DNA of 64,000 bases from Bacteriovoracaceae bacterium (GTDB taxonomy: Bacteria > Bdellovibrionota > Bacteriovoracia > Bacteriovoracales > Bacteriovoracaceae), in contig CANCFT010000010.1 of assembly GCA_947377285.1 (NCBI GenBank), forward strand, positions 1 to 64,000, read 5' to 3'. The notes beneath the pieces are model-generated. The model saw only the letters and a list, made by a program, of their open reading frames with translations. It searched no databases and had not been told where the DNA came from. How positions within the stretch are numbered: the first letter of the stretch is position 1; each line of letters opens with the position of its first letter. Shown piece after piece: positions 5,354 through 15,604 of this stretch. Made by a program: the position numbers and the translations under genes.

Positions 5354-6268
5354 ATGACCTTAGACCAACTTCTTACCATAGAAGCCATTGTTTTAGAAGG
5401 CAGTTTTAAGGCCGCCGCTGATTCTCTTCACAAGAGTCAACCATCAATAAGTATGGCAGTAAAAAAGCTTGAAGAAGAGTATCAAGTTATTTTGTTTTCT
5501 CGCAATGAATACCGGCCAAGTTTAACTAAAGAAGGAGAATTTTTTTTTGAAAAAGCTAAATCTGTTCTGAGAGAATTTAGAGAACTCGACAGCCTGGCCC
5601 GTCAAATGATGAGTGGGGAAGAAGTCGAATTGAGAATCAGTATTGACGCAATCAGCCCCGTTTCGCTTATTTTAAAGTTCTTGAAAGAATTCTTTAGCAA
5701 TCATCCCAACACAAAACTTCAGTTAAGTTTTGAGGTTCTTAATGGGACCATAGAGCGGTTAATAGAAGGAGATGTAGACTTCGCTATTACCCCTATGCAT
5801 GGCGATGCGAATTGGTCCGTAGATGCCTTACCTCTTACTAGAGCTAAAATCATTCCAGTCCGGCGTGCGGATTTATTTCCTGAACAAAAAGTGACTGATG
5901 AGCTCCTTCGGCAATACAACCAAATTGTTCTTGCAGACTCATCAGTGAATTCACCCAAAATGACTACGGGAGTTTTAGTCGGTGGCAAGAGTGTCACTCT
6001 TTCGGAAATTTCTTTTAAAAAAGAAATGATCATTCAGGGTCTAGGTTGGGGAGGACTTCCCTATGAAATGGTTAAATTAGAGCTAGAACAAAAAACCCTT
6101 GTACCAATAAAGACAGCTCTCATTAAAGAACAAGAAATGGAAATATTTTTACTTCGTGATTCACAAAAATCACTTGGTCCAGTTGCTCGAGAATTATGGG
6201 AAAAAATGAGAGGAGAGCTAGAGCGTACTAAGGGCAATGCAAATGATGCTAAGAAAAAAAAGAGTTGA
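5354..6268 (+). CDS. LysR family transcriptional regulator
   Basis: About 304 residues from ATG 5354, chosen because GGAG at 5344-5347 sits at proper spacing before it. The in-frame ATG at 5342 has no such site. The N-terminal winged helix-turn-helix is clear: LLTIEAIVLEGSFKAAADSL, then SQPSISMAVKKLEEEYQVILFSR. The C-terminal part is a periplasmic-binding-like effector domain (LRISIDAISP, GDVDFAITP). The C-terminus is Lys-rich. It is divergent from the YceI gene and probably controls that gene and itself. The effector is unknown. Confidence 0.9.
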   Translation: MTLDQLLTIEAIVLEGSFKAAADSLHKSQPSISMAVKKLEEEYQVILFSRNEYRPSLTKEGEFFFEKAKSVLREFRELDSLARQMMSGEEVELRISIDAISPVSLILKFLKEFFSNHPNTKLQLSFEVLNGTIERLIEGDVDFAITPMHGDANWSVDALPLTRAKIIPVRRADLFPEQKVTDELLRQYNQIVLADSSVNSPKMTTGVLVGGKSVTLSEISFKKEMIIQGLGWGGLPYEMVKLELEQKTLVPIKTALIKEQEMEIFLLRDSQKSLGPVARELWEKMRGELERTKGNANDAKKKKS

Positions 6269-6636
6269 GATTGAGGTGTTAAAAAATCGACGCTTTCAAA
6301 ATCCGTTTTTAAACGTCGACTATATTTTGTGTAAGTAAGTTTGTCTCTATGCCAAAATTCTAAGTGCCAGTTGGGTTTTTTAGTAGTTCTTTTTTCTTAC
6401 AATTCATTACTATTTTCTAACATCACTCGGTCATTTTCCGCAAGTGGCTGTAAATGCTCCCAATAGTAAATTTTGATACTCTAAGTAAAGATTCAACTAC
6501 TCATAAATAAAAATAAATTTTTTCCATGATTAAACAAAATTAGACTTATTTTAGAGTTTTGATTTTTTTGATGCGCTTTTTTGATTGTTAATTTATTGTA
6601 GCGAAAATTGAGAAAAATATAAAAGTAGGCCCTAAT
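6269..6636. other. Intergenic gap, possible weak terminator at 6287-6319
   Basis: About 370 bases with no gene. TCGACG (6287-6292) and CGTCGA (6314-6319) can pair around a 21-base loop, followed by a short T-rich stretch. This is a weak terminator candidate for the LysR gene. The rest is AT-rich leader for the fatty-acid hydroxylase gene, in which no clear promoter was assigned. Confidence 0.35.
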
Positions 6637-7257
6637 ATGAAAAAGCAATCGAGTGAATCAATACGAATTTTTAAAAATCCAATTCTCGAATCCTTTACCC
6701 ACGTTCATCCAATTATCCCATTACTCTTGTGGGTACCTATTATTCTCTTCTTATTTTATCGTGGCTTCACTGTTAAAAATATCAATATAACAGAATTTAT
6801 AATTTTGTTTTTTTTAGGTATGCTTCTGTGGACATTTACAGAATATGTGTTGCACCGTTTTGTTTTTCATTGGGACTCAAAGAGTAGAGCGGGAAAATAT
6901 TTTGTTTTTCTTTTTCACGGACTTCATCATGATGATCCTCAAGACGCGACTCGATTAGTGATGCCTCCAGTTCCTGCTCTATTAATTGTTTCTTTGCTAT
7001 GGGGAATTTTTAGCAGTATTTTTCCAGATCAATATATAGATGTATTAATGGCCCATTTTTTAATTGGATATCTTTGTTATGATTATATTCACTATGCAAC
7101 ACACCACTTTGCGATGACTTCCCCAGTTGGAAAGTTTTTGCGCAAATACCATTTACAACATCATTATGCAGGTGAAAATAGCCGGTATGGGGTGAGTTCA
7201 CCGTTATGGGATTATATTTTCAGAACGACTAGAGGGTCTAAAGTCGAGCATCATTAG
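6637..7257 (+). CDS. Fatty acid 2-hydroxylase-like membrane di-iron enzyme
   Basis: 206 residues of the sterol desaturase/fatty acid hydroxylase superfamily. All His clusters for the di-iron centre are present: HRFVFH (73-78), HGLHH (94-98), HYATHH (152-157) and HLQHH (172-176). Hydrophobic segments lie near 25-42, 52-70, 108-128 and 137-148. The size and motif order resemble the catalytic part of FA2H/Scs7, which hydroxylates the acyl chain of ceramide. It sits in the inner membrane. It faces the ceramide genes in the opposite orientation, with one small gene between. A role in making 2-hydroxy-fatty-acyl ceramide is inference from motif type and location. It overlaps the convergent gene by 20 bases. 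Confidence 0.85.
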   Translation: MKKQSSESIRIFKNPILESFTHVHPIIPLLLWVPIILFLFYRGFTVKNINITEFIILFFLGMLLWTFTEYVLHRFVFHWDSKSRAGKYFVFLFHGLHHDDPQDATRLVMPPVPALLIVSLLWGIFSSIFPDQYIDVLMAHFLIGYLCYDYIHYATHHFAMTSPVGKFLRKYHLQHHYAGENSRYGVSSPLWDYIFRTTRGSKVEHH

Positions 7258-7660
7258 TGAATTCTAAAGAGGGTTCAAGAGTTACCTCATGTTCCAATCG
7301 ATCAATACAACGAGTCAGCTCATCAAGAAAATTTTCATTTAGAACATTTGCACTTTGTCTGATTTGACGAATAGAAAAAATATTTTGAAAACGGCATACG
7401 CCAACCGAAGTCTTTCTTTCTAAGCCGCTTTCATCGCGAGAAATTAAGTTAAAACTCAATTCACATTTATTTGTCGATTTTAGGCAAGAAAATTTTTCAA
7501 AATTATAGTTATAATCTCCCTCGCACCACGTATCTCCACAAATATTATCAATGGCGCGGATTATCTCAAGATTTTGTTTTGCTGAAAATAATTCATTGGT
7601 TGATGGAGTTGCAGCGATAGCAGAAGTCATTGCAAAAATAAAACAGATAAGTGCTTTCAT
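7238..7660 (-). CDS. Exported Cys-rich hypothetical protein
   Basis: 140 residues. The signal peptide covers residues 1-17 (ALICFIFAMTSAIAA-TPS). The mature part has six Cys, in NICGDTWC, SCLKSTNKC, VCRF and RCID, enough for three disulphides. It is therefore probably folded in the periplasm or outside the cell. No family is recognised. It lies between the ceramide genes and the hydroxylase, with its own leader (7661-7764). Its 3' end overlaps the hydroxylase gene. Confidence 0.65.
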   Translation of the reverse strand: MKALICFIFAMTSAIAATPSTNELFSAKQNLEIIRAIDNICGDTWCEGDYNYNFEKFSCLKSTNKCELSFNLISRDESGLERKTSVGVCRFQNIFSIRQIRQSANVLNENFLDELTRCIDRLEHEVTLEPSLEFTNDARL

Positions 7661-7764
7661 AAAAAAATTCCTAAAGCGTTAAAAGGATCGAGACTGATTT
7701 TTATCAGGAAATTTCTTATTTGTGTAATAGATTATAGGTAGAGCATCTAGCTAATTATTAGATA

Positions 7765-8748
7765 TTAAAGCCAATGGCGCTTTTGGTAGTCGGCCAAAGT
7801 TATTTGAATCGTTTTAGGTAAATCGAATTGATAGGTTTGGCCCAAAAGGGATTGTGATTTTTTAGAGGAACATGTCCATGCCTGGGCCTTTAGTTCAAAA
7901 ATTTTATCTGGAGTGAGTCTCAACTGATGAGGAATAATTTTGTGTACTATTTTTAAGAGAAAACTTAAAAATTTAATGATGAATAGTGGAGTTGGAATAT
8001 AAATAATCCAAGTCTTTTTTAATTGTTTTTTTATTTCTTCAATTAATTGTTTAAAAATGATGACTGAGTCATAGGCACTATAAATAAAGACTTCATTATC
8101 AGACTCAACAACATATATAATGGTTTTCACTAAATCAAACACGCAAACAAAGCTGTATTGTTTTGAAAGCGAGTCAGTTCCAGGTAGTAAAACCAGGCCA
8201 GATTGGACCATTTTAAAGATATCAAGAATAGCAGGGTCCCCAGGACCTATAACCATGGGGGGACGAATGATTGAACACAACCATTCTTTTGGGGCATTCG
8301 TTTTAAGTAATTCTTCTGCTAATTTTTTAGATCGGCCATAGGCACTTACAGGAAAATCAATTTCCATTTCATCTTTTATTTGTCCTTTAAGACTTGGTCC
8401 CGCTGCCGCCAAGGAAGAAAGTAAAATAAATTTAAAGGGCTTCAGCGGATTAATTTTAAAATGATTTTTTAAAATGTCTATAAGAGCAGCCGTAGCATTT
8501 GCATTTACTTGAAAAAAATCATTTTCATCAAACGAGTGGACAAGGCCTGCCGTATGAATGCAAGCATCAATATCTAATGGAAGTTCAAATGAATTTAAGT
8601 CACCTTTCACGATTATAAATTGTGGATGAGCAAAACTCATTTTAGAGGGAGTTCTCACTAAACCATAAACAGTATGCCCATGCTCAAGAAGTTTAAGACA
8701 TAAGTGAGTGCCAACAAATCCGTTGGCACCTGTAATAAAAATTTTCAT
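7765..8748 (-). CDS. NAD-dependent reductase, probable ceramide reductase CerR
   Basis: 327 residues of the extended short-chain dehydrogenase (epimerase) family. The nucleotide-binding GANGFVG is at residues 7-13, a serine is in LLSSLAAAG (111-112), and the catalytic YGRSK has Tyr137 and Lys141. It starts 3 bases after the acyltransferase stop, so it should be translationally coupled. In Caulobacter an epimerase-type protein (CerR) reduces 3-keto-ceramide after acylation, and its partners are Spt and bCerS. The same three families are present here in one operon, so the CerR assignment is a strong inference. A hydrophobic stretch near residues 252-272 could be a membrane anchor, fitting a lipid substrate. 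Confidence 0.75.
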   Translation of the reverse strand: MKIFITGANGFVGTHLCLKLLEHGHTVYGLVRTPSKMSFAHPQFIIVKGDLNSFELPLDIDACIHTAGLVHSFDENDFFQVNANATAALIDILKNHFKINPLKPFKFILLSSLAAAGPSLKGQIKDEMEIDFPVSAYGRSKKLAEELLKTNAPKEWLCSIIRPPMVIGPGDPAILDIFKMVQSGLVLLPGTDSLSKQYSFVCVFDLVKTIIYVVESDNEVFIYSAYDSVIIFKQLIEEIKKQLKKTWIIYIPTPLFIIKFLSFLLKIVHKIIPHQLRLTPDKIFELKAQAWTCSSKKSQSLLGQTYQFDLPKTIQITLADYQKRHWL

Positions 8749-8751
8749 AAA

Positions 8752-9879
8752 TTAAAGATTTTTTTCATACAAGCGGTACCGCTTGTATGCTTCTCCGCCC
8801 ATGCGAATAAGTGGTTTATTCATTTCTAAATTGTTCTCAAGAATCCAACTCATTTCTATGTTTTTATTGAGTGGATTTTTTTTGATTGAAATATGATTAT
8901 GTTTATAGAGGAGAGTTTCCAATCCCATTTTTCGGAATTCTTTTTTCACGCCCATTGTAATGACTCGAACTCGATTCATTCGTTTTTTCGCTGTAAGTAT
9001 TTTATAAATGGCCATGGGGGATAGATTACCACTTGGGATTTCTTTAAAGACTTGGTTTAGGTCGGGGAGAGTGAGGATAAAGCCAGCGACAACACCATTA
9101 ACGAGTGCGAAGTGGACAAGCTCTGGGTCTACAATAGATTTTAAATCTTTGGCAGTATGGTAAAACTCATCCTTTGTCATTGGAACAAATCCCCAGTTAG
9201 ACTCCCAAGCGGAATTGTAAATATCAAACATCGTGTCTAATTCTTCATTCCATTTTTTTAAGTTTAAAGTTCTAAATGTAACTTTTGATTTTTTTTCAGT
9301 CCGTTCAGCAATATCCATGATGATTTTTGGCATCGTGAAGTTTGCATCGACATTATAAGCGAGGAGATCCATTGCTTTAGTGTATCCGGACGCTTCAATT
9401 TGAGTAGGATAATAAGGAGGATTGTAGGTCATCATAATTTGTGGGGCATCATCAAATTTATCAACAAGGAATCCGCATTCATAATTTGTCCCTGGATTCA
9501 TTGGTCCTTGCATACCTGTTAAGCCTTCACTTTTAAGTGATGCTTCGGCAGTCTTTAATAAGAGACTTGAAACGGCAGAATCATTAATGGCCTCATAAAA
9601 GCCGAAGAAACCAATTTTAGTGTTTTGGTATTTATTGTAAGCATGATTATTGACGGCCATAATTCGACCAATAATTTGACCGTCTTTTTCAGCAAGCCAC
9701 GCTTTAACTGTAGCTGTTTGATAAAATGGATGTTTATTTTGATTGAGAAGATCTTTAACTGCCATTTTTAATGGTGGAACCCAGTAAGGATCATTTTTAT
9801 AAATAGACCACGGTAAATCGACAAATTCTTTTAAGTCTTTTTTATAAGCTAAGTTAATTTCTCTGATTGAAAGTGACAT
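8752..9879 (-). CDS. GNAT-like acyltransferase, probable bacterial ceramide synthase
   Basis: 375 residues. The N-terminal segment has LPWSIYKNDPYWVPPL. The central part has GPMNPGTNYECGFLV, and the C-terminal acyl-CoA-type loop is VKKEFRKMGLETLLY. This matches the large YghO/GNAT-like family that includes the Caulobacter bacterial ceramide synthase (bCerS), which N-acylates 3-keto-sphinganine. It lies between the Spt and CerR candidates. Its ATG at 9879 has GGAG 8 bases upstream, but that site lies inside a perfect hairpin (9884-9912). The assignment depends on both family and context. Other acyl acceptors are possible. Confidence 0.7.
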   Translation of the reverse strand: MSLSIREINLAYKKDLKEFVDLPWSIYKNDPYWVPPLKMAVKDLLNQNKHPFYQTATVKAWLAEKDGQIIGRIMAVNNHAYNKYQNTKIGFFGFYEAINDSAVSSLLLKTAEASLKSEGLTGMQGPMNPGTNYECGFLVDKFDDAPQIMMTYNPPYYPTQIEASGYTKAMDLLAYNVDANFTMPKIIMDIAERTEKKSKVTFRTLNLKKWNEELDTMFDIYNSAWESNWGFVPMTKDEFYHTAKDLKSIVDPELVHFALVNGVVAGFILTLPDLNQVFKEIPSGNLSPMAIYKILTAKKRMNRVRVITMGVKKEFRKMGLETLLYKHNHISIKKNPLNKNIEMSWILENNLEMNKPLIRMGGEAYKRYRLYEKNL

Positions 9880-9883
9880 AGGT

Positions 9884-9912
9884 AGATCTCCAAAAACAAA
9901 TTTTGGAGATCT
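9884..9912 (-). promoter_or_regulatory. Perfect hairpin masking the acyltransferase RBS
   Basis: Two 12-base arms (9884-9895 and 9901-9912) are exact reverse complements around a 5-base loop. On the mRNA the 3' arm carries the GGAG Shine-Dalgarno of the acyltransferase gene (8 bases from its ATG), and the 5' arm carries the complementary CTCC. No T run follows on either strand, so it is not a normal terminator. It may limit initiation, or may protect or process the transcript between spt and the acyltransferase gene. Confidence 0.6.
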
Positions 9913-9937
9913 TATCTTATGATTTTAATTTTGACTA

Positions 9938-11140
9938 TTAGTGGATTGAAGTAGGGATTTCAAATATCTTTTTTGCTTCTGCAAATACTTCTAAGACAGT
10001 CGCAAGGTCTGCTTTATTGTGTGAAGACATATAACTTGTTCTAATTAAAGCTTCTCCCTTAGGTACAGCTGGTGGAAGCACAGGAGTCGCAAAAACACCA
10101 TGAGACTCAAGGAATTTTGTCATTTGAAGGGCCTTCATATCATCGCCAATAAAAATGGGAATAATAGGAGTTTGAGAACCATAGGTATAAAAACCAAGTT
10201 CCTTAAATCCATTTCTCATAAACGCGACATTGTCCCATAAATTATCGAGAATAGTTGAATCAGTCGTAACCATGTCAATACAGGCCGAGACAGTTGCAAC
10301 GGCCGCTGGAGGCATAGAGGCTGAAAACATAAACGAACGAGCAGTATGGCGAACATAATCAATTGAATCTTTTGTCCCAGAGATTACTCCACCAATAGAA
10401 GCAAATGATTTTGAGAAAGTTCCCATATTGAAATCAACATCTTTAGTTAAGTTGAAGTGATTCATGGTCCCGCGACCTTGAGCACCCATAACACCAATTC
10501 CATGAGCATCATCAACATAGACGTAAGCACCGTATTTTTTTGCTAATGCCACAACTTCTGGCAATTTCAACACATCTCCGGTCATTGAAAAGACACCGTC
10601 AGCGACGATGATGACACGGTTAAATCGAGAAATATTTCCTTCTAGCAACTCCTCTAGAGAACTCATATCGTTATGTTTATATTTAAATGTAGTTCCTAGC
10701 GAAAGCCTAGATGAGTCGACAATAGATGCGTGATTTTCAGAGTCAAAAAGCAGTAAATCTTTTGGACCGCAAAGAGCAGAAAGTGCCCCTAAATTTGCTT
10801 GCATTCCTGTTGAAAAAACGATTGCTGCTTCATGGCCTAAATACTGAGCAAGTTTAACATCAAGTTCTTCGTGAATATTTAAGTTACCATTTAAAAATCG
10901 CGAGCCCGTACAACCTGTACCGTATTTCTCAATCGCTTTTATGGCCGCTTCTTTAACATACGGATGGTGAGTTAAACCAAGGTAATTATTTGAACCGATC
11001 ATGATCTGTTTTTTACCCTTAACAGTCACTGTAGAAGCTTCGGTTTCTTCTATAGCTCTAAAAAAGAAATATAAATCATTATCTCGTAAGAGATTTGCGC
11101 GTTCAATAATTTTACTTTCACTAAAAGGAGTTCTTGCCAT
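9938..11140 (-). CDS. spt: Serine palmitoyltransferase-like alpha-oxoamine synthase
   Basis: 400 residues from ATG 11140, where MARTPFSESK starts the family homology; the 20 codons upstream begin at a TTG and look non-coding. This is a PLP fold-type I enzyme that condenses an amino acid with an acyl-thioester. Visible features are GSNNYLGLTHHP, the His in ENHASI, VDDAHGIGVMG, and the PLP lysine (about Lys244) in GTFSKSFASIGG. The TFSKSFAS form is what serine palmitoyltransferases show, whereas biotin-pathway BioF usually has GTLGKAFG. The next genes fit bCerS and CerR, which supports the first step of sphingolipid synthesis (serine plus palmitoyl-thioester to 3-keto-sphinganine). No biotin genes are nearby. 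Confidence 0.85.
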   Translation of the reverse strand: MARTPFSESKIIERANLLRDNDLYFFFRAIEETEASTVTVKGKKQIMIGSNNYLGLTHHPYVKEAAIKAIEKYGTGCTGSRFLNGNLNIHEELDVKLAQYLGHEAAIVFSTGMQANLGALSALCGPKDLLLFDSENHASIVDSSRLSLGTTFKYKHNDMSSLEELLEGNISRFNRVIIVADGVFSMTGDVLKLPEVVALAKKYGAYVYVDDAHGIGVMGAQGRGTMNHFNLTKDVDFNMGTFSKSFASIGGVISGTKDSIDYVRHTARSFMFSASMPPAAVATVSACIDMVTTDSTILDNLWDNVAFMRNGFKELGFYTYGSQTPIIPIFIGDDMKALQMTKFLESHGVFATPVLPPAVPKGEALIRTSYMSSHNKADLATVLEVFAEAKKIFEIPTSIH

Positions 11141-11297
11141 TTTTGGTTCTCTTGCTAGTTTTGTTCTTAATAGTATTAGGCGTTGAAAAATTACCCTCAA
11201 AGTGCAGTATCGTCAACGAAATAGGATATGTCTGAAAAATGTATAGGTGTCTATTTTAGCTTTTAATTTAGAGGGGTTATGTCAATTTTATATGATA

Positions 11298-12074
11298 TTA
11301 TGTTGGGGAAGTCTTCTTCGCCAAGATGTCATCGAACTTTTTCTTCATTTCTTCGCCGCGTGCCTCAGTCGATATCTTTATATAGAGCTCTTCTTCAGTT
11401 TTACGGGCCAATTCCTTAAATGAGATACCTATTTTTATTTTACCATTAACGACTCCATCTTCCCCAGTCATCGGAATATGGATAGCGACTAATGCTTGTG
11501 GGATATAATAATTTTTTCGGTCAAATCGCAAAGTACATTCCCTAAAAAGAGATCCTTTTGGAAAGCGCTCTATTTCAGATTGATCAATAATAAAACTAGT
11601 TCCTCCCGTAGATATATCTAAGGCCGGAAATACTTGGTCATCTATTTTAAATTGGATAGGAATAACTTCACTGGCATTTAAACGGAAATTCCCTCTTTGC
11701 TGGCTTTTAAAAATATCTTGTTGGATTTCCATTGAGTAACTTAAATCTTCAACATGGAATTTTAATTTTCCCCCCGTGAAATAATGAATTTTATCATCGA
11801 AAGGAATTTTGATTAAAACGATTTTCCCAGCTTTAGTGGAGCCAGTAATTTTAGTCATGAGTTTACCAGTTGGCTTTAATTTAAAAATTTTTAATTCAGG
11901 ATTATAATCTAGCACAATATATAGTTCTGCTTGGTCCTCATTTTCACCTTTTTCCCAAACAGTTAAAGATAGGGGATTGTCTAAGGTCTGGGGTTTAGAC
12001 ATTGACTCAGCGAAGTCCAAAGGGCCTACTGGCTGAAAATAATGCTTTTTATTAGGATCTTTTTTGTCAGTCAT
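11298..12074 (-). CDS. PilZ domain protein
   Basis: About 258 residues from ATG 12074; a TTG at 12113 would add 13. The N-terminal half is a beta-rich region like the YcgR N domain. The C-terminal half has the c-di-GMP-binding signature RGNFR (RxxxR, near 127-131), then DISTGGTSF (D-x-S-x-x-G, near 153). Both motifs are intact, so c-di-GMP binding is expected. There is no signal peptide or membrane segment. It may control motility or gliding as YcgR does, but no motility gene is adjacent. It is divergent from the DUF2797 gene. Confidence 0.85.
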   Translation of the reverse strand: MTDKKDPNKKHYFQPVGPLDFAESMSKPQTLDNPLSLTVWEKGENEDQAELYIVLDYNPELKIFKLKPTGKLMTKITGSTKAGKIVLIKIPFDDKIHYFTGGKLKFHVEDLSYSMEIQQDIFKSQQRGNFRLNASEVIPIQFKIDDQVFPALDISTGGTSFIIDQSEIERFPKGSLFRECTLRFDRKNYYIPQALVAIHIPMTGEDGVVNGKIKIGISFKELARKTEEELYIKISTEARGEEMKKKFDDILAKKTSPT

Positions 12075-12163
12075 GGCTAATTTTCGGCTACTAAGCTTCT
12101 TTACTTTAATCAAGATTTCTTTTTTCCTGACTTTAGCTTCTAACTTAAGTAGTATTTGCTCCC

Positions 12164-12994
12164 ATGAAAAACTTTAATATTGATAAAATGAAGACAAATT
12201 TAATCAACGGTCTTGCCCATTATACAATGGAGAGTAATCTTGACTCAATTGATATGAATTCATTATTAGGCAAAGAACTTAAGATTCATTTTAAAAAAGA
12301 AATCAACTGCACTAATTGCAATACCCTCATCAAGAAATCCTATGGGGGAGGTTATTGTTATCCGTGTTCTAGTAAACTCGCTGAATGCGATATGTGTATT
12401 TTAAAACCCGAACTTTGTCATTTTGCCAATGGTACCTGTCGGCAACCTGCTTGGGGAGAAGCTAATTGCATGATTCCCCATTACGTTTATATCGCTAATT
12501 CATCTGGCCTTAAAATTGGAATTACTCGCTCAACTCAAATTCCAACCCGTTGGATGGACCAAGGGGCAGTGGCGGCACTTCCCATTTTAAAAGTGAGCAC
12601 TCGCTATCAATCGGGAATTTTTGAAAAACTTTTTGCTAGTGAGATTAATGATAAAACTGATTGGCGAAAAATGCTGAAAGGTAATATTGAAGAAATCGAT
12701 CTTTTGGAAAAAAGGCAAGAAATTTTTGAAATGTTTGGTGATGATATTGACCAACTTGAACAAAAATTTGGAACGAATAAAATTGAGATTTTAGAACAAA
12801 GTGAAGTGACGACAATTAAGTATCCTGTATTGGAATATCCTGAAAAAGTAAGCTCACTTTCTCTCGATAAATATACTGATGTCGGTGGAATTTTAAAAGG
12901 CATTAAAGGACAATACCTCCTCTTTGATAGTGGAGTGATTAATATAAGAAGCCATACAGGTTATAAAATAGATTTAGAATACTTAAGAGGTTAA
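12164..12994 (+). CDS. DUF2797 protein: Cys-rich zinc ribbon plus GIY-YIG-like domain
   Basis: 276 residues. Residues 49-102 hold nine Cys in CxxC-type pairs (NCTNC, YCYPC, CDMC, then single Cys to about 102), suggesting one or two zinc sites. Then comes HYVYIANSSGLKIGITR (107-122) and an Arg near 129, which look like the Y-Y, KIG and R elements of a GIY-YIG nuclease-like fold. This combination is the DUF2797 family, of unknown function. It sits 6 bases before pepN on the same strand, so they form an operon. Activity is unproven. The GIY-YIG link is my inference from the motif. Confidence 0.75.
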   Translation: MKNFNIDKMKTNLINGLAHYTMESNLDSIDMNSLLGKELKIHFKKEINCTNCNTLIKKSYGGGYCYPCSSKLAECDMCILKPELCHFANGTCRQPAWGEANCMIPHYVYIANSSGLKIGITRSTQIPTRWMDQGAVAALPILKVSTRYQSGIFEKLFASEINDKTDWRKMLKGNIEEIDLLEKRQEIFEMFGDDIDQLEQKFGTNKIEILEQSEVTTIKYPVLEYPEKVSSLSLDKYTDVGGILKGIKGQYLLFDSGVINIRSHTGYKIDLEYLRG

Positions 12995-13000
12995 CTACAA

Positions 13001-15604
13001 ATGAAAACAGAACTACCAACAGTTATAAAATTAAATGAATACAAAACTCCTAATTATCAGGTTCAAACAATTGACCTGACAGTGACTCTTCATAATACTG
13101 AAACTCATGTTTATTCTAAGATGAAAATTTTGCGTAGTGAACATAATGTCGTTTCACCTTTGGTTTTAAATGGCGAAGAATTACTTTTAAAATCTATTAT
13201 CATCAATGGTAAAAAATTGAATGCAACAGATTACACTCTCGAAAGTGATTTATTAAAAATACATGATGTTCCTGCTGATTTTACCCTAGAAATAGAAAAT
13301 ACGATTAATCCAGAAGCTAACAAAACGCTAGACGGTCTTTATAAATCGGGAAGTATTTTTTGTACTCAAAATGAGCCGGAAGGATTTAGACGGATTACGT
13401 ATTATATTGACCGCCCTGATAATATGGCCAAATTTACGACAAAAATCATAGCCGATAAATTGCTTTATCCCGTTTTACTTTCTAATGGTAATCCTATTGC
13501 CAGAGGTGAGTTGGATAATGGTCAACATTTTGTAACTTGGGAAGACCCTTTTAAAAAGCCATCTTATTTATATGCTTTAGTGGCCGGAGATTTGGGGTCA
13601 ATTAAAGATACTTATAAAACATCTTCGGGAAGAACGATCGCCCTTGAAATCTATTGTGATAAAGGCAATGAAAACAAATGCCATTTCGCTATGGAGTCAC
13701 TAAAAAAATCGATGAAATGGGATGAAGACCGGTTTGGGTTAGAATACGATTTAGATATTTATATGATTGTGGCCGTGGATGCTTTCAATATGGGAGCGAT
13801 GGAGAATAAGGGGTTGAATATTTTTAATTCAGCTTATGTTTTAGCTGATCAAAAAAGTGCAACAGACTCTAACTTTTATGGAATTGAATCCGTCATAGGT
13901 CATGAGTATTTTCATAACTGGACTGGAAATAGAGTGACTTGCCGAGACTGGTTTCAATTAACATTGAAGGAAGGTTTAACCGTTTTTAGAGACCAAGAGT
14001 TTTCGGCCGATATGAACTCTCGAAATGTGGAACGCATCCAATCAGTCTTAGGATTAAGGGCCGCTCAGTTTGCTGAAGACGCAGGACCTACAAGTCACCC
14101 TATTAAGCCCGAGACTTATATGGAAATTAACAATTTTTATACATCGACTATTTATGAAAAAGGAGCTGAAGTTATTCGAATGATCCAGACTCTTTTAGGA
14201 GTCGATGGTTTTAGAAAAGGCATGGATAAATATTTTGAACTCTTCGACGGCCAGGCAGTTCGGACAGAAGATTTTATCCATGCAATGAGTGTGGCCAATA
14301 ATCATTTTGATTTTACTCAATTTAAAAACTGGTACAAACAAAATGGAACTCCGTTATTACATGCTACAACCAAGTTTGATTCAGATAAAAAACAATTTAC
14401 CTTAAATTTAAAACAATCCCTTCCAGCTAATGCTAAGGCTGAAGCCTTACCTTATCATATGCCAATTAGAGTTGGTTTAATTGGTGCAGATGGATCAGAT
14501 CTTGTTAATAAAGTTCTAGAGTTAAAAGAATTTTCTCAGGATTTTATTTTTGACAATATTGCGACTAAACCAATCGCTTCAATTAACCGAGATTTTTCGG
14601 CCCCAGTAAAATTAAGTTCTGACTTAAGTTTTGATGATCAGATTTTTTTAATGGCCAATGATTCAGATGCTTTTAATCGTTTTGAAGCGGCCCAAGTCGT
14701 CTCCCTTAAAATTTTACTTGGTTTAGTTGAGAGTGCTCGCAAAAATGAAACACTAACTCTCGATCCAAAATACATAGCAGCTTTTGGAAAAATTTTAAAT
14801 GATAATTCCATCGATGAGGCTTTTAAGGCCTTGTCGATGACACTTCCGGCGGAAGGAATTATTCATCAAGAACAAGAGGTTATTTATTATCCTGAAACTC
14901 TTATTGCCCGCGAGTTTGTGAAAAAACCATTAGCGGCCGCTCATCATGAAACTCTGGCCAAGCTTTACCATTCTGTGAATCTTGGTGGTGTCTATAAACT
15001 AGATCCAAAATCAATGGGGCAGAGGGATCTAAAAAATAAATGCCTCGATCTCTTAAGCACAATCAATAATGAATCCTATCAATTGCTGGCAGCGACTCAA
15101 TACAATCAGGCCAGTAATATGACAGATGAATTAGGAGCGTTGAGTGTTTTGGTTCATTCTAATTCAAAAGAAAAAATAAATGCGTTGGAAACATTTTATA
15201 AAAAATGGAATTCAGAAACATTAGTGATTCAAAAATGGCTAGGCGTTCAAGCGACTAATTGCGATGATTCAACTTATGAAACACTAATAAAGTTGGAAAA
15301 AGATAAAGTTTATGACCGCACAATCCCTAATCTTGTCAGGTCTCTCTTAGGACAATTTGTGGCGACCAATAAAGTTCAGTTTAATCATCCTTCAGGAAGA
15401 GGGTATAAACTCGTAACAGATAGATTACTTGAACTCGATAAATTAAATCCTCAAATCGCCTCTCGCCTGGCCTCTGGTTTTAAAGATTATAAGCGGACTC
15501 CAATGAGTCTCCAAAATTTGATGAAACCTGAACTTGAGAGAATCATCAAAACTGAAGGATTATCGAAAAATGTTTTTGAAATTGTTTCTAAAATATTAGC
15601 TTAG
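13001..15604 (+). CDS. pepN: Aminopeptidase N
   Basis: 867 residues, close to E. coli PepN (870). This M1 zinc metallopeptidase removes N-terminal residues from peptides. The substrate motif GAMENKG begins near residue 265. The zinc site HEYFH covers 301-305 with the third ligand Glu324 in LKEGLTVF. NWTGNRVTCRDWFQ between them is the hallmark of the bacterial PepN subgroup. There is no signal peptide, so it is cytoplasmic and would finish degradation of imported or host-derived peptides. It is co-transcribed with the DUF2797 gene. Confidence 0.97.
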   Translation: MKTELPTVIKLNEYKTPNYQVQTIDLTVTLHNTETHVYSKMKILRSEHNVVSPLVLNGEELLLKSIIINGKKLNATDYTLESDLLKIHDVPADFTLEIENTINPEANKTLDGLYKSGSIFCTQNEPEGFRRITYYIDRPDNMAKFTTKIIADKLLYPVLLSNGNPIARGELDNGQHFVTWEDPFKKPSYLYALVAGDLGSIKDTYKTSSGRTIALEIYCDKGNENKCHFAMESLKKSMKWDEDRFGLEYDLDIYMIVAVDAFNMGAMENKGLNIFNSAYVLADQKSATDSNFYGIESVIGHEYFHNWTGNRVTCRDWFQLTLKEGLTVFRDQEFSADMNSRNVERIQSVLGLRAAQFAEDAGPTSHPIKPETYMEINNFYTSTIYEKGAEVIRMIQTLLGVDGFRKGMDKYFELFDGQAVRTEDFIHAMSVANNHFDFTQFKNWYKQNGTPLLHATTKFDSDKKQFTLNLKQSLPANAKAEALPYHMPIRVGLIGADGSDLVNKVLELKEFSQDFIFDNIATKPIASINRDFSAPVKLSSDLSFDDQIFLMANDSDAFNRFEAAQVVSLKILLGLVESARKNETLTLDPKYIAAFGKILNDNSIDEAFKALSMTLPAEGIIHQEQEVIYYPETLIAREFVKKPLAAAHHETLAKLYHSVNLGGVYKLDPKSMGQRDLKNKCLDLLSTINNESYQLLAATQYNQASNMTDELGALSVLVHSNSKEKINALETFYKKWNSETLVIQKWLGVQATNCDDSTYETLIKLEKDKVYDRTIPNLVRSLLGQFVATNKVQFNHPSGRGYKLVTDRLLELDKLNPQIASRLASGFKDYKRTPMSLQNLMKPELERIIKTEGLSKNVFEIVSKILA

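Follow-up and report, generated by a model that had tools for sequence, protein, structure and literature searches.

A ceramide operon, an SCS7-like hydroxylase and a phosphonate cluster as candidate genes for a sphingophosphonolipid in an uncultured relative of Bacteriovorax

Bacterial genes for serine palmitoyltransferase (SPT), the bacterial ceramide synthase (bCerS or CerS) and the reductase CerR are often clustered, and Spt-like genes occur in many phyla (PMC11334938; papers given by PMC number are cited here from excerpts of their text). In Caulobacter crescentus, hydroxylation of the acyl chain has been ascribed to the DesA-type enzyme CC_0202 (PMC11324152). For Bacteriovorax stolpii, a sphingophosphonolipid has been reported (PMC6148460, PMC12366243); its phosphonate ceramide dates from 2001 (Watanabe et al., as cited in PMC12366243), and one of the two papers names the head group 2-amino-1-hydroxyethylphosphonate (HAEP). 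Similar production has been postulated from genomes for other bacteria (PMC12366243). Among the matches listed in the open-licence literature, the excerpts gave no gene assignment for the B. stolpii head group or hydroxylation. Here we analyze a 64 kb stretch (the window) of contig C10 from an uncultured relative of predatory Bacteriovorax, a draft metagenome-assembled genome of 3.45 Mb in 68 contigs (92.75% complete). The window contains a compact ceramide operon at 7765-11140 and, facing it, a gene for an SCS7/FA2H-like hydroxylase; a phosphonate cluster lies on contig C1. Since clustering of the three ceramide genes has already been described (PMC11334938), the operon by itself is of known type. 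Combined with the hydroxylase and the phosphonate cluster, it provides a testable gene assignment for a B. stolpii-type sphingophosphonolipid.

The ceramide operon and the adjoining hydroxylase gene

A preliminary description of this DNA, made from its letters, had proposed three ceramide genes in order on one strand, and the open reading frames (ORFs) are present, all on the minus strand. They encode an SPT (9938-11140, 400 amino acids from ATG; Pfam Aminotran_1_2, 1.3e-53), a bCerS with a tandem GNAT fold (8752-9879, 375 amino acids; Acetyltransf_1, 1.1e-6) and a CerR-type NAD(P)-dependent reductase of the SDR type (7765-8748, 327 amino acids; Epimerase PF01370, 1.5e-22). Since gaps of only 58 bases (SPT to bCerS) and 3 bases (bCerS to CerR) separate them, the three genes are probably one transcript. 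To examine conservation, we used the best 80 of 367 relatives, retrieved via peptide patterns, and restricted synteny counts to 33 loci (L002-L033, L035) whose SPT is 63-93% identical, leaving out the more distant L034 and L036-L081; several of the 33 contigs stop early. The GNAT gene lies 3′ of the SPT gene on the same strand in 32 of the 33 loci and CerR is present in 27. Thus, the grouping is not due to chance, and we are confident to the point of near certainty that the operon makes ceramide.

The best PDB chains for the window SPT were the SPTs 8guh and 3a2b (367.6 bits, 6.4e-109). Pairwise identity was 52% to an SPT-type protein of Parabacteroides and 35-38% to those of Sphingomonas (35%), Roseomonas and E. 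coli. Since identity to Kbl (35-36%) was as high as that to the Sphingomonas SPT, a tree was needed. We built two from 40 of the 80 related loci, with 10 other rows in the first and 12, without HemA, in the second. In the first (50 rows), the SPT rows, which were named by their neighbors only, stood apart from Kbl, BioF and HemA with support of 100/98. In the second (52 rows), the window SPT grouped with the solved SPTs 3a2b and 2jgt, apart from Kbl, BioF and 8s1y (100/99). The tree program flagged long branches for BioF, Kbl, HemA and 8s1y. On both trees we rejected a BioF or Kbl identity, and the clustering with BioF/Kbl that the preliminary description had named as refuting its reading did not occur. 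The lysine motif TFSKSFAS that it had singled out as SPT-type is present and differs from the aligned motifs of E. coli Kbl (TLGKALGG) and BioF (TFGKGFG). Within the SPT group of the second tree, Bacteriovoracaceae-type rows, including the window, formed one group (100/100) and Rhodobacteria-type rows another (100/100); PMC9386255 describes two SPT subgroups and places B. stolpii with the Bacteroidetes subgroup. No further alpha-oxoamine synthase was detected in the genome, as the SPT search gave one match at E<=0.001.

For bCerS and CerR, our references were plasmid loci. That of Sphingomonas carries genes for an SPT-type protein, an acyl carrier protein (ACP), an NAD(P)H-binding protein and an N-acetyltransferase; another is from Roseomonas; and that of E. 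coli carries genes for an SPT-type protein, an ACP, an epimerase and an acyl-AMP ligase together with yghO. The SPT and CerR names of these references were assigned by position and similarity. The window bCerS was 37% identical to E. coli YghO, 34% to the Roseomonas GNAT and 33% to the Sphingomonas GNAT, near full length (1e-66 to 6e-77). This similarity to GNATs encoded beside SPT genes, together with the SPT neighbor in 32 of 33 loci, bears out the earlier bCerS-type label. Its AlphaFold model (pLDDT 89.7) best matched tandem GNATs in Foldseek (TM ~0.6), with N-myristoyltransferases lower down, and a PDB sequence search with this GNAT returned nothing useful. CerR was 25-27% identical to the reference SDRs over 193-303 alignment columns, its best match being the Sphingomonas protein at the CerR position (26.7%, 5.9e-23). 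With this similarity and the motifs GANGFVG and YGRSK (YxxxK), the CerR-type assignment also held. The N-terminus of the window CerR has no hydrophobic segment, and a hydrophobic stretch lies at 246-273; Caulobacter CerR has been reported to be periplasmic (PMC11087976). Separately, on the Roseomonas mucosa plasmid p1-AD2 (L135, 23715-24872), WP_210753623, annotated as a dATP pyrophosphohydrolase, is bCerS-type by similarity (34% to the window's); its gene lies 9.6 kb from an SPT-type gene that has an adjoining ACP gene.

The preliminary description had noted that the dedicated acyl carrier and acyl-ACP synthetase of Caulobacter were missing. A PP-binding (ACP) search of the genome gave four matches, on contigs C14, C6, C57 and C8, and none on C10, which agrees with the first point. 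As to the second, no synthetase was seen among the ORFs at 2.8-17.4 kb, which were judged by eye, ten of them by Pfam, the remaining window and genome not being searched. We considered a dedicated carrier encoded elsewhere and rejected it, as no acyl-AMP ligase was visible next to the ACP ORFs of C6, C8 and C57 in the stretches inspected (by eye, with no family search; the C57 flank stops at the contig end). On C6 (L122, 4837-8754), a KAS III-like gene (Pfam), which we took as OleA-like, is accompanied by ORFs resembling, by eye, a flavoprotein, an ACP and a ketosynthase.

Convergent to the operon, at 6637-7257 on the plus strand, is a gene for a 206-amino-acid SCS7/FA2H-like ceramide fatty-acid hydroxylase (FA_hydroxylase PF04116, 6.6e-19). 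Its best PDB match was yeast SCS7, the ceramide very-long-chain fatty-acid hydroxylase (6.3e-30). The predicted model (pLDDT 79) matched four chains at E<=0.001, every one SCS7; against 4zr0, it gave a TM score of 0.81 (Foldseek 1.6e-9) at 34% identity. The two proteins share the histidine-box pattern HG.HH..P.D..RLVMPP. A hydroxylase gene lies on the strand opposite to the operon in 24 of the 33 related loci.

We also asked how these genes co-occur in 191 genomes from the phylum, 50 of which belong to the window's family. SPT was scored as present at E<=1e-100, giving 109 genomes; this left out rows with a weaker or truncated match (G046, G068 and G075, for example). The hydroxylase was found in 69 genomes at 1e-20, of which the distant G147 and G181 were removed to leave 67. 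We report plain counts, as Fisher values ignore relatedness and were excluded from the evidence. A close hydroxylase copy was accompanied by SPT in 65 of 67 genomes; the SPT-less ones are G172, which also has Lipid_DES, and G007. Within the family, 29 of 35 SPT genomes have the hydroxylase, while at 1e-20 none of the 15 SPT-less genomes has a close copy, G147 and G181 having a distant one (29-31%). The convergent SCS7-like enzyme is thus probably the alpha-hydroxylase of the fatty acid, a reading drawn from homology, predicted fold and gene distribution. Ceramides of B. stolpii are said to carry alpha-hydroxy acids and phytosphingosine.

The phosphonate cluster and a proposed pathway

Since a phosphonate head group has been reported for B. 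stolpii, we searched the genome for phosphoenolpyruvate mutase (PEP mutase) and found it at 87316-88140 of C1 (396 bits; cut-off 319.55). The surrounding cluster (coordinates in stretch L093) begins with a TauD-type dioxygenase (6030-7001), whose best PDB match was FrbJ (2.2e-12), presumably a phosphonate hydroxylase. It continues with a nucleotidyltransferase (7031-7774) with best PDB match 6pd1 (9.3e-15), which we take to be PntC-AEPT of Treponema denticola; a CDP-alcohol phosphotransferase (7771-8652) with an intact DG..AR...G...D...D motif; a LysE-type translocator (8649-9287); the PEP mutase, which carries a further nucleotidyltransferase domain (9284-10924); phosphonopyruvate decarboxylase (10950-12107; 416.4 bits, cut-off 312.5); an M13-type peptidase, so named by eye with no family search (12107-14161); and 2-aminoethylphosphonate (AEP) aminotransferase (14183-15295; 417.4 bits, cut-off 360.8). 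PEP mutase, decarboxylase and transaminase all exceed their curated cut-offs. The cluster matches the 1-hydroxy-2-aminoethylphosphonate head group reported for B. stolpii.

A pathway that accommodates these genes would begin with SPT, which would form 3-ketosphinganine by condensing serine with a fatty acyl thioester. bCerS would add the second acyl chain and CerR would reduce the 3-keto group, in either order, and the SCS7-like enzyme would introduce a hydroxyl group, probably at the alpha carbon, into the fatty acid held in amide linkage. The C1 cluster would make 2-aminoethylphosphonate, the TauD-type enzyme would hydroxylate it at C1, and the PntC-like enzyme would activate the phosphonate as a CMP ester. 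Finally, the CDP-alcohol phosphotransferase would move the phosphonate to ceramide, yielding 1-hydroxy-2-aminoethylphosphonate ceramide as reported for B. stolpii. We infer each catalytic step, and ceramide rather than diacylglycerol as the acceptor, from gene families, synteny, phylogeny, predicted folds and co-occurrence. Taken as a whole, with ceramide operon, acyl hydroxylase and phosphonate head group on ceramide, we judge the pathway likely to be correct.

The distribution of the phosphonate genes is consistent with a link to ceramide. Of the 191 genomes, 19 have a PEP mutase above its cut-off, and 18 of these also have SPT. In the window's family, all 12 PEP-mutase genomes have an SPT orthologue, compared to 35 of 50 genomes overall; the phosphotransferase is in the cluster in nine of the 12 and the TauD gene in ten. 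In G184, a sister genome from the same genus, the phosphonate cluster has no phosphotransferase gene; this gene is located elsewhere, immediately after an additional bCerS gene that is 72% identical to that of the window. There, the second bCerS, the CDP-alcohol phosphotransferase and a desaturase (a 336-amino-acid FA_desaturase with a Lipid_DES domain) follow in a row on one strand (L110, 7965-11118). This row is the strongest sign that the phosphotransferase acceptor may be a ceramide-type lipid.

Lipid_DES is of the sphingolipid delta4-desaturase/C4-hydroxylase type. It was present in 39 of the 191 genomes, 38 of which have SPT, whereas 14 control genomes all lacked it. Four of the five genus members in the sample have it, and it was not found in the window's genome. 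The gene lies within the flank of the SPT locus in four of the 33 loci. Around 14 Lipid_DES genes, 13 of the stretches showed no SPT-locus gene; the other (L156, from G144) is probably the same genome as L028, which had already been counted. A PDB search with the Lipid_DES protein gave no match.

We lean slightly toward the broader claim of a complete bacterial sphingophosphonolipid pathway in this lineage, made up of a ceramide operon, an SCS7/FA2H-like hydroxylase, Lipid_DES in relatives and a Pnt-type cluster with a ceramide-directed phosphotransferase. The gene set supplies candidate enzymes for joining phosphonate to ceramide, and the C1 cluster may account for the rare carbon-phosphorus head group on the ceramide of such bacteria. 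SCS7-like and Lipid_DES-like genes occur in bacteria with ceramide genes; if the claim is true, bacterial ceramide is decorated by homologues of eukaryotic ceramide-modifying enzymes, which raises the issue of the direction in which these genes were transferred.

Alternative readings

Several findings weigh against the main reading. The organism is known from a metagenome-assembled genome alone, CerR was not found in six of the 33 related loci, and its similarity to the reference SDRs is distant. The SPT itself misses the curated cut-off of its best NCBIfam model, SerpalmtaseCFB (487.6 of 640 bits); the second model is the BioF/Kbl-related TIGR01825 (411.7 bits, cut-off 535.4), followed by bioF (387.2) and glycine C-acetyltransferase (375.7). 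PDB chains named BioF/Kbl (8s1y, 296 bits; 7poa, 295 bits) rank directly below SPT and outscore the Sphingomonas SPT (259). These scores, along with the Kbl identity on par with that of the Sphingomonas SPT, could point to a different alpha-oxoamine synthase (BioF, Kbl or an enzyme that makes sulfonolipids from cysteate) and to an operon with some other product. However, the tree unites it with both solved SPTs and sets it apart from Kbl, BioF and 8s1y, its 52% identity is to an SPT-type protein, the cysteate acyltransferase match in the PDB reached 246.7 bits compared to 367.6 for SPT, and its linkage to bCerS is fixed. We therefore regard another synthase as highly improbable. A different question is whether the SCS7-like enzyme could act, like SUR2, on C4 of the sphingoid base instead of the fatty acid. 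SUR2 falls in the same Pfam family, and the window's genome has no detected Lipid_DES gene, which could otherwise carry out C4 hydroxylation. Since the nearest solved relative is SCS7, with the histidine-box pattern common to both (a comparison made without a SUR2 sequence), we consider base hydroxylation improbable and retain the fatty acid as the substrate.

A further question concerns the acceptor of the phosphonate: the operon could make ceramide that bears another head group or none, with the phosphonate going onto diacylglycerol or surface glycans. CDP-alcohol phosphotransferases are said to act mostly on glycerolipids. Rice et al. treat glycan and lipid targets alike (PMC6697681). The genome's second CDP-alcohol phosphotransferase adjoins myo-inositol-1-phosphate synthase, so another head group is possible. 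PEP mutase is missing from 23 of the family's 35 SPT genomes; thus, it is not required for ceramide. Wherever PEP mutase and SPT occur together, in 18 genomes, they lie on separate contigs, and G159 has PEP mutase without SPT. G161 (L118) and G167 (L119) have PEP mutase and no close phosphotransferase, so that they may use their phosphonate in another way. An additional close bCerS gene, as in G184, was detected in just one of 14 genomes of the genus, and the TauD-type enzyme is far under the TmpA cut-off (42.8 of 400). All of this counts for this alternative or against the proposed pathway. On the other side are the G184 row of second bCerS, phosphotransferase and Lipid_DES, the SPT in every PEP-mutase genome of the family, and the B. 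stolpii phosphonate, which was reported on a sphingolipid (PMC6148460, PMC12366243). On balance, the gene evidence suggests that the head group is probably transferred to ceramide, and we view diacylglycerol or glycans as an unlikely destination, although a more probable one than either of the enzyme reassignments above.

Other features of the locus and comparison with known systems

Downstream of CerR, a small ORF of 140 amino acids (7238-7660, minus strand) matched no Pfam family and has homologues in the equivalent place in L003, L005, L006 and L035. The operon may end with this gene, which is dispensable for ceramide. PAP2 was considered as a fixed operon partner and rejected: it is in 18 of the 33 loci, 17 of which also have the hydroxylase gene, and not in the window. 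On contig C5 (L125, 5066-10575), a gene for the second CDP-alcohol phosphotransferase is grouped closely with genes for myo-inositol-1-phosphate synthase and a nucleotidyltransferase, all possible inositol lipid genes.

Between the SPT and bCerS genes is a perfect 12-bp inverted repeat (9884-9912, minus strand), whose 3′ arm contains GGAG, the likely bCerS ribosome-binding site. Comparing arms by script, we found that eight of 33 SPT-bCerS gaps (the window, L002-L006, L010 and L035), all from the closest relatives, have a stem of 11-15 bp whose right arm includes GGAG; the L010 stem has a paired change in both arms. With single-base shuffling, 0 of 300 trials for each of these gaps attained the stem. 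No such stem is present in the short gaps of L007, L008, L009, L031 and G039, nor in longer gaps from remoter loci, L018, L023-L025 and L027 among them. The repeat is the sole copy within the window with up to three mismatches allowed, and terminator-like matches in 6300-11400, this repeat among them, numbered 3, with 3.2 expected. Since its T-rich tail is on the plus strand, opposite to the operon, we read it as a ribosome-binding-site hairpin or an operator. As a putative element, it may set bCerS output separately from that of SPT, or serve as an operator.

Compared to Caulobacter crescentus (aasR, cerR, acpR, spt, cerS), the window has the same families, Spt, bCerS and CerR, a comparison made via the Sphingomonas, Roseomonas and E. 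coli counterparts. Unlike the Caulobacter-type enzyme, the window SPT falls outside the Rhodobacteria-type group. An acpR gene beside spt would mark a Caulobacter-type locus of Rhodobacteria, but contig C10 has no PP-binding match. In the window, spt, cerS and cerR are in one row, whereas in Rhodobacteria cerS is described as always in an operon separate from spt and cerR (PMC11324152). The SPT of Bacteriovorax (Bdellovibrio) stolpii (UniProt A7BFV8) comes from the same kind of organism and was compared by its published description. The hydroxylase resembles yeast SCS7/FA2H in identity, fold and histidine boxes, but the window protein is bacterial, has a single Pfam domain with no cytochrome b5 domain in only 206 amino acids, and is encoded beside a ceramide operon. 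The C1 cluster shares the logic of PEP mutase, decarboxylase, transaminase and cytidylyltransferase with the PntC phosphonyl-tailoring clusters of Rice et al. 2019 (PMC6697681); it differs in including a CDP-alcohol phosphotransferase and a TauD-type dioxygenase and in occurring in genomes that carry SPT. The preliminary description named the operon correctly but did not extend to the SCS7-like hydroxylase or to the genes that probably supply the head group. Such ceramide operons and the B. stolpii SPT are already known; what is new, as judged from the matches listed in the open-licence literature, is the gene assignment that adds the SCS7-like hydroxylase and the phosphonate cluster.

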